Shown here in pieces: positions 161-3,550 of a stretch of 49,606 nucleotides of DNA (positions are counted from its first letter, which is position 1; the number at the start of each line of letters is the position of its first letter). The notes under the pieces are model-generated. The model searched no databases. It was not told the DNA's origin and was given only the letters and a program-made list of their open reading frames with translations. Location: NCBI GenBank assembly GCA_014382695.1, contig JACNJF010000141.1, positions 1 through 49,606 on the forward strand, in the 5' to 3' direction. A program made the translations under genes and the position numbers. Origin of the DNA: Gammaproteobacteria bacterium. Its GTDB lineage: Bacteria; Pseudomonadota; Gammaproteobacteria; GCA-001735895.

Positions 161-190
161 GGAACCGGATCATTTTCGACAGCGTTTAAT
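161..190 (+). promoter_or_regulatory. candidate ECF-sigma promoter upstream of the sigma gene
   Basis: A GGAACCGGA element at 161-169 resembles the GGAAC -35 box of ECF (RpoE-like) sigma factors. About 16 bases later comes AGCGTTTAAT at 181-190, a possible -10. The same two blocks recur before the anti-sigma gene at 734-761. This suggests autoregulation by the sigma factor encoded next to it. The -10 ends only three bases before the ATG, so a transcript from here would be leaderless or nearly so. Inferred from motif similarity only. Confidence 0.5.
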
Positions 191-193
191 AAT

Positions 194-730
194 ATGGATA
201 TTCGAAATTACTGGCCCTTCAGGAAAGATTGTCACTCACAGTTTGAGTCTCTACTCGGGCCTCATCTCAACAGGCTTTATAAGCTGGCCTATCGCCTGAC
301 CGGTCAGCGTGACGATGCTGAAGACCTGGTGCAGGATCTACTGCTCAAACTTTTTCCCCGCCTGCAGGAAATGCAGCAGATCGATCAGCTCGCGCCGTGG
401 TTGTCGCGGATTTTATATCGACTGTTTATCGATAATATCCGGCGCCAGCAAAGGTCACCCATCGATCTGATGGGCGACGAGGAAATCATCTATGAAACCC
501 ATGCCAGCCCGATGGACGGGCCGGCCGAGGTTACTCATATCGAGCTGACCCATGAGCGGATTAACCAGGCCCTGCAGCAGTTGAGTGAAGAGCATCGTGT
601 GCTGGTAATGCTGCATGATGTCGAGGGCTATAGTCTGCAGGAAATTAATTCGATGACGGATATACCGATCGGGACGATCAAGTCCCGATTAAGTCGTGGG
701 CGGCAGAAATTACGCGAAATCATGCAATGA
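194..730 (+). CDS. ECF-type RNA polymerase sigma factor
   Basis: A 178-residue protein with the two-domain layout of extracytoplasmic-function sigma-70 factors. Region 2 lies around residues 25-85, with the core-binding/-10 melting segment YKLAYRLTGQRDDAEDLVQD. Region 4 lies around 125-175, with a helix-turn-helix in which IPIGTIKSRLSRGRQKL is the typical recognition helix. The length is normal for the family. No good Shine-Dalgarno sequence precedes the ATG, and a candidate ECF promoter ends three bases upstream, so translation may be leaderless. The next gene encodes its likely membrane anti-sigma factor, and the third gene a secreted acidic protein that may belong to the regulon. Which signal it answers to cannot be told from the sequence. 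Confidence 0.93.
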   Translation: MDIRNYWPFRKDCHSQFESLLGPHLNRLYKLAYRLTGQRDDAEDLVQDLLLKLFPRLQEMQQIDQLAPWLSRILYRLFIDNIRRQQRSPIDLMGDEEIIYETHASPMDGPAEVTHIELTHERINQALQQLSEEHRVLVMLHDVEGYSLQEINSMTDIPIGTIKSRLSRGRQKLREIMQ

Positions 731-733
731 TTG

Positions 734-761
734 GGAACCGGAATTCTCCTCTAGCGTTAAT
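734..761 (+). promoter_or_regulatory. second candidate ECF-sigma promoter, before the anti-sigma gene
   Basis: GGAACCGGA at 734-742 followed by AGCGTTAAT at 753-761 repeats the two blocks seen at 161-190, with a spacer one base shorter. It lies in the 51-base gap between the sigma and anti-sigma genes. It would allow extra transcription of the anti-sigma factor and the secreted protein when the sigma factor is active. A chance match is possible, but two GGAACCGGA...AGCG(T)TTAAT copies in one operon is suggestive. Confidence 0.5.
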
Positions 762-781
762 ACTAGTGCGAGGTAATTAAA

Positions 782-1453
782 ATGAAATGTGAAGATATTA
801 ACCGTTATATAGATGACTTTCTGGATCAGAATTTAATTCCTGAGGATTTGAAGGTTTTTAAAGGTCATCTGTCAGGCTGTAAAGTCTGTGCCGATAAACT
901 GGAAATAGCCAGTAACCTGTTAACAGGTTTAAGGCAGTTACCGGTTGAACCCCCTGCAGCGGGGTTCAGAGCACGAGTTTTTTCACAGCTGCGGCAACAA
1001 TATCAGCAGCCGCGTGAATCGGGTTTCCGCTTTGCAGCCGGTTTTGCGAGTGCCATGGTAGCCAGTCTGGCGATATGGTTTGTGAGTACCCTGTATGTTC
1101 CCGATGACATCGTTGAGCAACCACCGATGATATCTGTAGCAATGCATGAGACGCAGACGGTACGCCTGCTGTTTGATTCGCAGAAAGATTTTCAACAGGT
1201 AACACTAAGCATTGATCTACCTCGCAATATAGAGCTGGACGGTTATCCCGGGCAAAAAAATCTGTCCTGGCAGACCCAGTTACAGAAAGGACAGAATATT
1301 CTTGCCTTACCGGTTGTCGCAACCGCTTACGGGCAGGGTGAACTGCTGGCTCAATTGAATTATGGGGATAAGGTGAAAACCTTCCGAATTGTAATGAAAA
1401 CAAATGCAGATGGGGTTCAGCGCTACCCGCTGAATCAATATTCACCTGCATGA
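782..1453 (+). CDS. zinc-finger transmembrane anti-sigma factor
   Basis: A 223-residue protein. It starts with an anti-sigma zinc-finger (zf-HC2-like) domain: Cys3 and then His29-x3-Cys33-x2-Cys36 match the HxxxCxxC zinc-binding signature. A hydrophobic segment at about residues 82-106 is a single membrane span. The C-terminal 115 residues would be periplasmic and have no motif I recognise. The expected role is to hold the upstream ECF sigma factor at the membrane until a periplasmic signal releases it. GAGG about eight bases before the ATG is a good ribosome site. It sits 51 bases after the sigma gene and 21 bases before the next gene, so the three probably form one operon. Confidence 0.85.
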   Translation: MKCEDINRYIDDFLDQNLIPEDLKVFKGHLSGCKVCADKLEIASNLLTGLRQLPVEPPAAGFRARVFSQLRQQYQQPRESGFRFAAGFASAMVASLAIWFVSTLYVPDDIVEQPPMISVAMHETQTVRLLFDSQKDFQQVTLSIDLPRNIELDGYPGQKNLSWQTQLQKGQNILALPVVATAYGQGELLAQLNYGDKVKTFRIVMKTNADGVQRYPLNQYSPA

Positions 1454-1474: not shown

Positions 1475-2149
1475 ATGAAAAAATTAAATATAGCGATAGC
1501 ATTAGCACTGGGACTGGCCGTACCGTTTGCGGCAATGGGCGCAACTGTAGACGATGAAGTCACTATTCGTGTTATGAATATGTACGAGAATACGAATAGT
1601 GCGATTACACAGAATATAGAACTGCCCGATTCAGCCAGTGAGCAGGCAGCTGAGAATGCGTTCCAAAGAACACAGACTCAGGTTCGTGATCGTAACGCGG
1701 ATGGTACTGGCCAGGGGCCTGGTTCAGGTTCTGCACCCGGTGATGGTAGCGAGACTGATGGATATGGTCCCGGACCTGCCGCAGGCGGTGGCGATAATGC
1801 CGGTTTTGGCCCTGGCCATGAACAAGGTGCTGGAAATGGTGCCGAAGCAGGTGATCTGCAACGTGATCGTATCCGCGACCAGGATCGGGAACATGTTCGT
1901 GATATGGATCAGGACCGGGTCATGGATCAGGATCAGGATAGAACCATGGATCAGGATCGAGAGCAGATTAGAGATACTGAGCATGTCTTCGATCATGAAC
2001 CGCCAGCCTCTCAGGAGCCGCAGCAGGAACCTCCTATGATCCAGGAAATGGAGCAGCAGCAGAATCAGATCGATAATGAGCCTGTTGAGTTGCCGGAGCA
2101 GGATAGAGACGCTCAACAGAATCAACATGGTCAGGGTTCTGGCGGTTAA
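1475..2149 (+). CDS. secreted Gly-rich, DQDR-repeat acidic protein of unknown function
   Basis: A 224-residue protein not assignable to a known family. Residues 1-22 form a signal peptide ending MGA, so it is probably periplasmic or secreted. Residues 72-127 are rich in Gly, Asp and Pro. Residues 128-172 contain repeated charged units of the type (M)DQDR or RDQDRE. The tail at 175-224 is rich in Gln, Glu and Pro. The mature part has no Cys and is probably disordered. Alternating Asp/Arg repeats might bind cations or polyanions, but that is a guess. AGGAG lies before the ATG. It is the last gene of the sigma/anti-sigma operon, and a strong terminator follows, so it is a likely output of that sigma factor. 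Confidence 0.75.
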   Translation: MKKLNIAIALALGLAVPFAAMGATVDDEVTIRVMNMYENTNSAITQNIELPDSASEQAAENAFQRTQTQVRDRNADGTGQGPGSGSAPGDGSETDGYGPGPAAGGGDNAGFGPGHEQGAGNGAEAGDLQRDRIRDQDREHVRDMDQDRVMDQDQDRTMDQDREQIRDTEHVFDHEPPASQEPQQEPPMIQEMEQQQNQIDNEPVELPEQDRDAQQNQHGQGSGG

Positions 2150-2187: not shown

Positions 2188-2221
2188 CCAGCCCGCAAAT
2201 GCTTTGCGGGCTGGTTTTGTT
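2188..2221 (+). terminator. Rho-independent terminator of the sigma operon
   Basis: A perfect 12-bp stem (CCAGCCCGCAAA at 2188-2199 and its complement at 2203-2214) closes a three-base loop and is followed by TTTTGTT. It lies 39 bases after the stop of the DQDR-repeat gene and ends the three-gene transcript. Confidence 0.93.
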
Positions 2222-2281: not shown

Positions 2282-3550
2282 ATGAAAAATTCAGCTTACA
2301 GAGGCTATATTTTTAGCCTGCTGCTGTTACTGTTTTCGCCTGCATTGCTGGCGACCGCAGAGTCGGACTTTAATCTGGGGGTTGACGCTTTCAAGGGTGG
2401 AGACAATGCCGCTGCTGCGGGCTATTTTGAATCCGCACTGGAGCAGGGAATGGAGTCTGTCGCACTGCACTATAATCTGGCCAGCAGTTACTACAAGCTG
2501 GGCCGCTACGCAGAGGCAAAAAAATATTTCCAGATTGTTAATCAGACCGCAGAGATGCACGAACTTGCCGAGTATAACCTTGGCCTGATTGCCACCAGGC
2601 AACAGCAGTGGAGACAGGCCCGGCGTCACTTTAATGAAGTCATCGATTCCGGTCGCGACGAGAAGCTGAGTAAACTCTCGCAACGACAGCTGGAAGCCCT
2701 GAAAAATAAGGAGAACCAGATTACCGCTTATGTTTCGGCTAATCTCGGTTATGACGATAATATCACTTCGGCCTCATCTGATTCGGTGCTTGGTAACTCG
2801 GATACCTTTTATGATCTGTATGCTTCGGTAGACTACCTGATCAGTGGTAAACGGCGCGAAGGCTGGGTCGCGGATGCCAACCTGTACAGCATCGATTATA
2901 GTGACACCAATAACTATGATGAATATCAGTATTCGCTGGGTATCAAAAGAGCGCTGTTACTGAATGACTGGGAAACCAGTGCTCAGCTGAGCCTGTCGAA
3001 AAGTGTATTCGGCGATGACGATTATCTAAGCACGAGCAAAATTGATTTGTATGGACGTAAAGTGTTATCGCGTACTGACCGCTTGTATTTACGTTACCGG
3101 CTGGAAGATATTAGCAGTGATCAGCCGCTGTATGACTATCTTGATGGCTGGCGGCAGCGTTTTAAGGTGGAGTTTCGGCAGTACAACCGGGATGATTCCA
3201 GGCAGGTCTATTACGAACTGGAATTGAATAATCGAAGTGAACTGGTGACCTCTCTGTATGCCTATGATTATTCACCCTTGCGCCATACGGTGCATGCAAA
3301 ATACATCCGCTATCTGAATGACAGGTGGCACCTGAGCAGTGACCTGTCCTACCGCTTCAGCAACTACCCGGACTCTGCCACGATGAACCGTAATGATGAA
3401 CAGCTGAGGCTGGAACTGGGGGCGGATTACCGGATCGACAGTAGCTTTAAGCTGACCGCTAAATTGCAGTTTACCAATGTCGATTCAAGCGAAGATCGCT
3501 ACAGCTATGACAAGTCAGTTATCAGGTTTGGACTCAGCAAGTTTTTTTAA
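2282..3550 (+). CDS. TPR plus outer-membrane beta-barrel protein
   Basis: A 422-residue protein. A GTG at 2258 is in frame, but the ATG at 2282 is preceded by GGGAGAGG and begins a clear signal peptide (about residues 1-26, ending LLATA), so I chose 2282. Residues about 28-145 form three or four tetratricopeptide repeats. From about residue 155 to the end alternating polar/aromatic beta-strands make a barrel, and the last residue is Phe, as the outer-membrane assembly machinery prefers. This layout of a periplasmic TPR domain before a barrel recalls Slam (DUF560) and PgaA-type exporters. The barrel here is shorter than PgaA, and no specific family is certain. It follows the sigma operon but lies beyond its terminator. 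Confidence 0.72.
   Translation: MKNSAYRGYIFSLLLLLFSPALLATAESDFNLGVDAFKGGDNAAAAGYFESALEQGMESVALHYNLASSYYKLGRYAEAKKYFQIVNQTAEMHELAEYNLGLIATRQQQWRQARRHFNEVIDSGRDEKLSKLSQRQLEALKNKENQITAYVSANLGYDDNITSASSDSVLGNSDTFYDLYASVDYLISGKRREGWVADANLYSIDYSDTNNYDEYQYSLGIKRALLLNDWETSAQLSLSKSVFGDDDYLSTSKIDLYGRKVLSRTDRLYLRYRLEDISSDQPLYDYLDGWRQRFKVEFRQYNRDDSRQVYYELELNNRSELVTSLYAYDYSPLRHTVHAKYIRYLNDRWHLSSDLSYRFSNYPDSATMNRNDEQLRLELGADYRIDSSFKLTAKLQFTNVDSSEDRYSYDKSVIRFGLSKFF

Follow-up and report, generated by a model that had tools for sequence, protein, structure and literature searches.

The locus analysed here carries two near-identical motifs in one ECF sigma factor operon, the first directly before the sigma gene and the second between the sigma gene and the anti-sigma gene. 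This raises the question whether both motifs are promoters, which sigma factor would read them and whether a message from the first would start at the sigma start codon itself. The window, i.e. the whole stretch of DNA that was analysed, is 49,606 nucleotides long; its base 1 is the first base of contig G000:C167 in a draft genome of 3.99 Mb with 238 contigs.

The operon and its two motifs

The genes for an ECF sigma factor, an anti-sigma factor, a secreted low-complexity protein and a protein with TPR domain and beta-barrel follow each other in this order (Table 1). The sigma protein matches Pfam Sigma70_r2 and Sigma70_r4_2 above the cut-off, and its length of 178 aa is below the limit of about 200 aa used for ECF (group IV) sigma factors. 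It scores 97.8 bits against TIGR02937 (cut-off 42.9) and 121.5 bits against the SigE equivalog NF007229 (NCBIfam), which is below the curated cut-off of 265. Among solved structures, its profile is matched best by SigH and SigE chains, which we take to be mycobacterial and to prefer GGAAC/CGTT-type promoters.

C3, H29, C33 and C36 are invariant in 32 aligned anti-sigma sequences and include the HxxxCxxC pattern of class I/ZAS proteins. The zf-HC2 domain was found in 30 of the 32 at E ≤ 0.01, the window protein scoring 20.5, below the Pfam cut-off of 22.2. Profile matches to RsiW and RsrA were obtained, and as in ZAS proteins the gene is located directly downstream of the sigma gene and a hydrophobic stretch is present. 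Judged by its predicted topology, the protein is presumably membrane-bound with a periplasmic part. The structural model features a helix at residues 90-104, at low pLDDT, and a beta-sandwich at residues 116-208. Structure comparison gave matches to the periplasmic sandwich only, which are common Ig-like folds (Z up to 9.5).

Table 1 Features of the sigma factor operon, with positions in the window
Feature	Position	Strand	Basis or remarks
P1, upstream ECF promoter candidate	161..190	+	Motif, matrix score, position kept in relatives; -35 GGAACC 161-166, spacer 16 nt, -10 CGTT 183-186, predicted +1 A194
ECF sigma factor, 178 aa, regions 2 and 4 only	194..730	+	ATG without Shine-Dalgarno site
P2, internal ECF promoter candidate	734..761	+	Equivalent site in 50/60 orthologous loci; -35 GGAACC 734-739, spacer 15 nt, -10 CGTT 755-758, predicted +1 at about 766-768
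Shine-Dalgarno-like GAGG of anti-sigma gene	770..773	+	Duplex energy -7.2 kcal/mol
Anti-sigma factor, 223 aa; N-terminal zinc-type domain, one membrane helix, periplasmic beta-sandwich	782..1453	+	
Secreted protein, 224 aa; signal-peptide-like start, conserved VTIRV..IELP, then charged low-complexity part	1475..2149	+	
Terminator-like hairpin with T-rich tail	2188..2221	+	z -4.69; no flag in consensus scan
TPR domain and 14-strand beta-barrel, fourth gene of the module	2282..3550	+	

The upstream motif (P1) reads GGAACCGGATCATTTTCGACAGCGTTTAAT, and the internal one (P2), which begins 3 nt past the sigma stop codon, reads GGAACCGGAATTCTCCTCTAGCGTTAAT. A sequence-only reading of this DNA had described the two as similar motifs sharing 18 bases, and this is borne out: both contain GGAACCGGA and AGCGT(T)TAAT, the second block differing by one base in length. 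The inner stretch between the shared blocks is 11 nt long in P1 and 10 nt in P2. The same reading had placed the end of the first motif 3 nt before the sigma ATG and had noted that this ATG lacks a Shine-Dalgarno site. Both observations were confirmed, with P1 ending at 190 and the ATG at 194. Shine-Dalgarno-like pairing is absent before ATG 194 (duplex energy +0.4 kcal/mol, compared to -7.2 kcal/mol before the anti-sigma ATG at 782); the anti-Shine-Dalgarno sequence used for these energies was an assumed one. An in-frame TAG is located upstream at 152-154, and no alternative in-frame ATG, GTG or TTG was found from this codon up to and including the first 60 nt of the sigma gene, so that ATG 194 is the only likely sigma start.

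The two sites in orthologous loci

Orthologous sigma loci were collected from relatives, from named genomes and from 369 sampled genomes of the class, with an orthologue cut that was set after seeing a score gap from 153 to 121 bits. After removal of duplicates (L026, L167, L126, L030, L031, L032, L035 and L038), 60 orthologous loci were obtained, and 17 loci of other ECF sigma factors served as controls, two of which (L040 and L168) are the same place. The 60 loci, which still include near-identical pairs such as L130/L132, carry 41 genus labels when unnamed loci are counted by title.

The pattern GGAAC[CT]-N14-17-CGT was found near the sigma stop codon in 50 of the 60 loci, compared to 0.46% of shuffled regions and 1 of the 17 controls. 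At least one locus with an internal site occurs under 36 of the 41 genus labels. In most relatives the motif takes the form GGAACCTTTT-N12-CGTGTNA; the extra GGA common to both window sites lies outside this family motif. The internal spacer is 16 nt in 45 of the 50 sites and 15 nt in the other 5, the shorter form being confined to the window and its close relatives. The anti-sigma start, in most cases preceded by a Shine-Dalgarno-like site, lies 15-34 nt past the internal CGTN in 48 of the 49 loci with both ends called (mode 23); the exception, L131, with a start at -16, is probably a wrong start call.

A motif at this position might be kept because it codes for the sigma C-terminus, which reads MEPF...RV in a number of relatives, and not because it is a promoter. 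Of the 50 internal sites, 29 end ahead of the sigma stop codon, and among the 42 starting ahead of it, 27 are in one common frame. However, 13 sites overlap the stop, 8 (the window included) are located entirely past it, and the other two frames are used by 12 and 3 of the 42. Since sites reach or pass the stop codon and all three frames are used, coding alone does not explain the motif. The same motif also stands upstream of the sigma gene in 28 of the 60 loci, which makes the coding explanation very improbable.

The upstream count was obtained with a matrix trained on the 50 internal sites and on no upstream site, applied to up to 200 nt upstream of the sigma gene. The threshold of 9.6 is the 99% level of shuffled sequences (mean -2.5, maximum 16.5, n = 1540). 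Owing to this training, the matrix count of internal sites (53 of 60) is circular, whereas the upstream count is not. Upstream sites at or above the threshold were found in the 28 orthologous loci and in 1 of the 17 controls, a locus with an RpoE-like sequence; the other 32 orthologous loci have none. An internal site alone exceeds it in 26 loci, an upstream site alone in 1, and neither in 6.

In the window itself, P1 is the top match of the matrix, and its score of 18.4 was reached in none of 6 simulated 49.6-kb strands. P2 scores 7.8 and fits the family matrix poorly, simulated strands giving 2-8 such matches each. It would not stand out alone, and its support comes from a position common to the 50 orthologous loci. 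The window contains 2 matches to GGAACCN{14,17}CGTT, compared to 0.35 expected; as 4 of 100 shuffled windows also reach 2, a chance resemblance of two short motifs could be considered from the window and the low P2 score. However, the motifs and their positions are conserved in orthologous loci beyond the genus and the family, and in view of the comparison with the 60 loci chance is very unlikely.

Based on the same comparison, the proposal that both sites are ECF-type promoters of the operon is well supported. We infer recognition by the operon's own sigma factor from the co-conservation of sites and sigma family, which agrees with the SigH and SigE profile matches. Counting the present sigma factor, 6 ECF sigma matches are encoded in the genome of the window (G000), and according to the available part of PMC8103513 ECF promoters share AAC/CGT boxes. 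Another ECF sigma of the cell might hence read both sites, with the operon as the target of a cascade, but the sites track the present sigma family and occur in only 1 of the 17 other ECF loci for either position. We therefore regard a cascade as quite improbable and recognition by the own sigma as the preferred reading.

The position of the sigma start codon relative to P1 bears on the nature of the message. Of the 28 upstream-site loci, 19 (the window included) have an in-frame sigma ATG at a distance of 7-10 nt downstream of CGTN, and the remaining 9 show other spacings. For comparison, Table 1 of PMC6180224 lists 32 sequences, of which 18 were used as ECF promoters of S. meliloti with a placeable CGTN box. 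The +1 falls on the 9th nt after CGTN in 11 of them, on the 8th in 3, on the 7th in 2 and on the 10th and 12th in one each. These sequences were taken to end at +1, as the lower-case start sites are their last letters. The 14 rows left aside were RpoD/RpoH-type, had other -10 boxes or had no mapped start; one of them, SMc01418, has CGTG with the +1 on the 11th nt. The spacing of 7-10 nt matches this range and would place the sigma ATG on the expected transcription start. In the window, the ATG comes 7 nt after CGTT, at the short end of the range. Among positions 7 to 9 after CGTT, only the 8th (A194) holds a purine; were transcription to begin one base later, at the 9th, the message would start with the U of the AUG and the codon would be lost.

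Based on the ATG spacing and the S. meliloti start positions, a leaderless or nearly leaderless sigma message is the best reading, and in this wording the earlier proposal of a leaderless message is well supported. All 19 loci with a sigma start codon at the predicted +1 use ATG. In 11 of them the promoter itself contains an in-frame stop codon; a further in-frame start codon upstream of the ATG used is present in 10 of them, and none in the window. Shine-Dalgarno pairing in the 19 loci averages -6.2 kcal/mol for the anti-sigma gene and -3.4 kcal/mol for the sigma gene (Wilcoxon p = 0.002). This contrast is not uniform, as L141 (-9.3), L148 (-11.2) and L151 (-9.3) have strong purine-rich pairing upstream of sigma, and several others are near -5.5. 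One of two copies in a genome of the same genus (L055) has weak boxes (score 5.5) with an ATG placed alike. On the sigma tree, which was built quickly and has weak support at 27 of its 61 inner branches, the leaderless layout appears in several branches and requires at least 12 changes; it was seemingly gained or lost repeatedly and extends beyond a single clade.

It is possible, though somewhat unlikely, that the promoters are real and that sigma is translated mainly from longer messages of an upstream housekeeping promoter. The leaderless P1 message would then yield little sigma protein and mainly supply the downstream genes. Basal sigma does need a source, and in the 26 internal-only loci sigma must be made without a P1-type promoter. 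However, a weak consensus scan of the + strand ahead of position 194, on a contig that begins at window base 1, gave no sigma-70-like promoter. The constant ATG at +1 also speaks against this explanation, because leaderless translation favours AUG according to the available text of PMC3616915. A leaderless sigma message that is itself translated remains the reading we prefer.

Accompanying genes and motif matches elsewhere

The sigma factor is present in 38 of the 369 sampled genomes. A secreted-looking ORF follows the anti-sigma gene in 54 of the 60 loci, 5 of the other 6 being loci without a called anti-sigma start, and 50 of these 54 ORFs contain a VTI-V...LP stretch (loose pattern). The TPR-barrel protein occurs in 36 of the 38 sigma genomes, compared to 4 of the 331 others (Fisher p = 5e-43, with species that are not independent). 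At 35 of 42 sigma loci, its gene follows downstream in the same orientation, no more than 4 kb away. No further promoter match was found within 400 nt upstream of the TPR-barrel gene in 34 loci (score ≥ 9.6), except at L171.

The model of the TPR-barrel protein (pLDDT 93.7, pTM 0.72) has TPR at residues 26-141, followed by 14 long strands, and structure comparison points to the OmpG and CymA barrels (Z about 21). Slam, the outer-membrane protein of type XI secretion, combines a TPR part at the N-terminus with a C-terminal SlipAM barrel of 14 strands. In Pfam, SlipAM is matched by 3 of 34 members of the fourth gene (best E 0.00087), not including the window protein, and TPR_Slam by 5 of 34; no Slam entry is among the best 50 matches listed in either structure comparison. 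The four-gene layout recalls Slam-type secretion pairs.

In G088:C101 (L090/L171), a second TPR-barrel gene off the sigma operon has its own motif copy about 205 nt upstream. The Microbulbifer genome of L064 (G102) contains a second sigma/anti-sigma/secreted set with an internal motif in the sigma gene end (L091), so the module is duplicated in some genomes.

The proposal that a genome scan for the motif would define the regulon did not hold: no clear regulon emerged, as matches are little above those of a reversed-pattern control. GGAACCN{14,17}CGTT gave 24 matches in the own genome and 13 for the reversed pattern, so the matches are largely background. GGAACCN{14,17}CGTG gave 14 compared to 10. 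With GGAACC-N16-CGTKTWA and at most one mismatch, 13 matches compared to 2 were obtained, the only exact ones being C95:312 and P1. Besides the two in the window, 12 of the 24 CGTT matches were inspected, and 6 of these lie inside a same-strand ORF of more than 200 codons. Similarly, 6 of the 14 CGTG matches are inside an ORF of more than 300 codons (the other strand was examined for L072 only), and of 10 CGTKTWA-pattern matches inspected, 4 are inside a long ORF and 3 opposite one.

In 24 genomes (the own genome and 23 chosen for a sigma homologue), GGAACCN{15,18}CGTGTNA gave 39 listed sites compared to 23 control matches. Sixteen of the 39 are at sigma loci, and the 23 others equal the control number; they are not taken to define a regulon. 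The strict pattern GGAACCTTTTN{11,13}CGTGTNA gave 17 sites in 13 of the 369 genomes and 1 control match; 15 of the 17 are at sigma operons, the exceptions being L072 and L123.

Several single sites were recorded. Some of the 23 non-sigma sites in the 24 genomes precede genes for secreted proteins or lipoproteins, namely DUF4382 (L071), DUF2202 (L082), a subtilase (L079) and a TPR-barrel (L090). In the own genome, GGAACC-N16-CGTTTTA at G000:C95:312-340 (L008) is the only other exact match that is placed like a promoter. It lies about 130 nt before the gene for a 112-aa secreted-looking protein with PPGW repeats, for which no homologue was found in the 11 other genomes searched. A weaker candidate target follows the one-mismatch match at G000:C214:34633-34661 (L111/L210), 55 nt before an ORF that we take from its sequence to be GGDEF-like. 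At G000:C72:17449-17477 (L072), a perfect GGAACCTTTT-N12-CGTGTNA runs antisense to the last part of an ORF of 481 codons, and no evident gene follows it on its own strand; it is possibly an antisense or small-RNA promoter, or chance. In G050:C61 (L096), a match lies 98 nt upstream of the gene for a protein that, judged by its sequence, resembles the heat-shock sigma factor RpoH.

A probable two-promoter circuit and its known counterparts

Taken together, we consider it probable that the operon is a two-promoter ECF sigma/anti-sigma circuit, in which both promoters are read by the operon's own sigma factor and the sigma message is leaderless. Transcription from P1 would start on, or within 1-2 nt of, the sigma ATG, and the leaderless message, continuing into the downstream genes, would provide positive autoregulation. 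P2 would give a second message with a normal ribosome-binding leader, encoding only the anti-sigma factor and the secreted protein. Freed sigma would lead to more sigma from P1 and to proportionally more brake and secreted protein from P1 and P2; the extra brake would limit the response and pre-load its shut-off. The exact +1, leaderless translation and feedback are predictions from the arrangement of the sequence.

The sequence-only reading had assigned P2 a separate control of the anti-sigma factor and the secreted protein. A separate message without sigma is indeed predicted, but a different regulator is not implied. As both sites fit the motif of one sigma family, P2 is likelier to give a second, sigma-less transcript under the same sigma. 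For the 26 internal-only loci, mainly negative feedback is predicted. The twin-promoter layout looks like an evolved way to balance switch and brake.

A further idea, which we hold to be rather unlikely, is that the condition of the translation machinery governs the ratio of sigma to anti-sigma, with a leaderless sigma message set against a Shine-Dalgarno-led anti-sigma message. If true, stresses favouring leaderless initiation would tip the circuit on with an unchanged membrane sensor.

In this gammaproteobacterial family, most loci retain a sigma-type promoter ahead of the anti-sigma gene, and about half have another ahead of sigma, in 19 loci at its start codon. The loci, which range from internal site only to both sites and from leadered to leaderless sigma, form a natural series in which brake feedback and leaderless translation can be tested. 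They also offer a ready-made motif and a conserved output, i.e. the secreted protein and the TPR-barrel, for what looks like an envelope response.

No description of the combination of P1 and P2 or of this sigma family was found in the literature searched, which covered few subscription papers. The usual description of ECF operons has sigma autoregulated from a promoter ahead of its own gene (PMC8103513, available part). In Acinetobacter, the available text of PMC12153292 describes SigAb as an autoregulated ECF sigma factor of a gammaproteobacterium, whose -10 box is CGTT and whose regulon is very small. Unlike the present family, its -35 is GTCAAC, and that text describes no internal anti-sigma promoter or leaderless start.

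Two S. meliloti operons come close in layout (PMC6180224, available part). In rpoE6-ecfR6, a possible RpoE6-dependent promoter lies inside the rpoE6 ORF before the anti-sigma gene, and in rpoE8-SMb20593 nearly the same motif stands upstream of sigma and behind its stop codon. However, these sigma factors belong to groups ECF26 and ECF29 and have other motifs. For rpoE8, according to the same source, no anti-sigma factor is known and no start site was detected at the second motif; overexpressed RpoE8 also failed to increase expression of the following gene.

At M. tuberculosis sigE, promoter P2 is recognised by SigE itself and yields a leaderless ECF sigma message (PMC10027907, as far as its available text goes), and SigE is among the top profile matches of the window sigma. 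In contrast to the present operon, sigE P2 also needs the two-component system MprAB, and a twin anti-sigma promoter is not mentioned in that text. The available part of PMC4921905 disagrees, deriving the leaderless sigE message from a WhiB7-type promoter and placing a SigE/SigH-type sequence at the other promoter.

In C. glutamicum, sigma is likewise followed by its anti-sigma gene, and a SigH-dependent promoter in the sigH coding region, PrshA, drives rshA alone (PMC3489674, available text). Unlike in the window, sigH-rshA of this actinobacterium is cotranscribed from four housekeeping promoters, and no sigma-dependent P1 is described there. The 26 internal-only loci are closest to this arrangement. 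Each half of the layout has a precedent, one in sigE P2 of M. tuberculosis and the other in PrshA of C. glutamicum.
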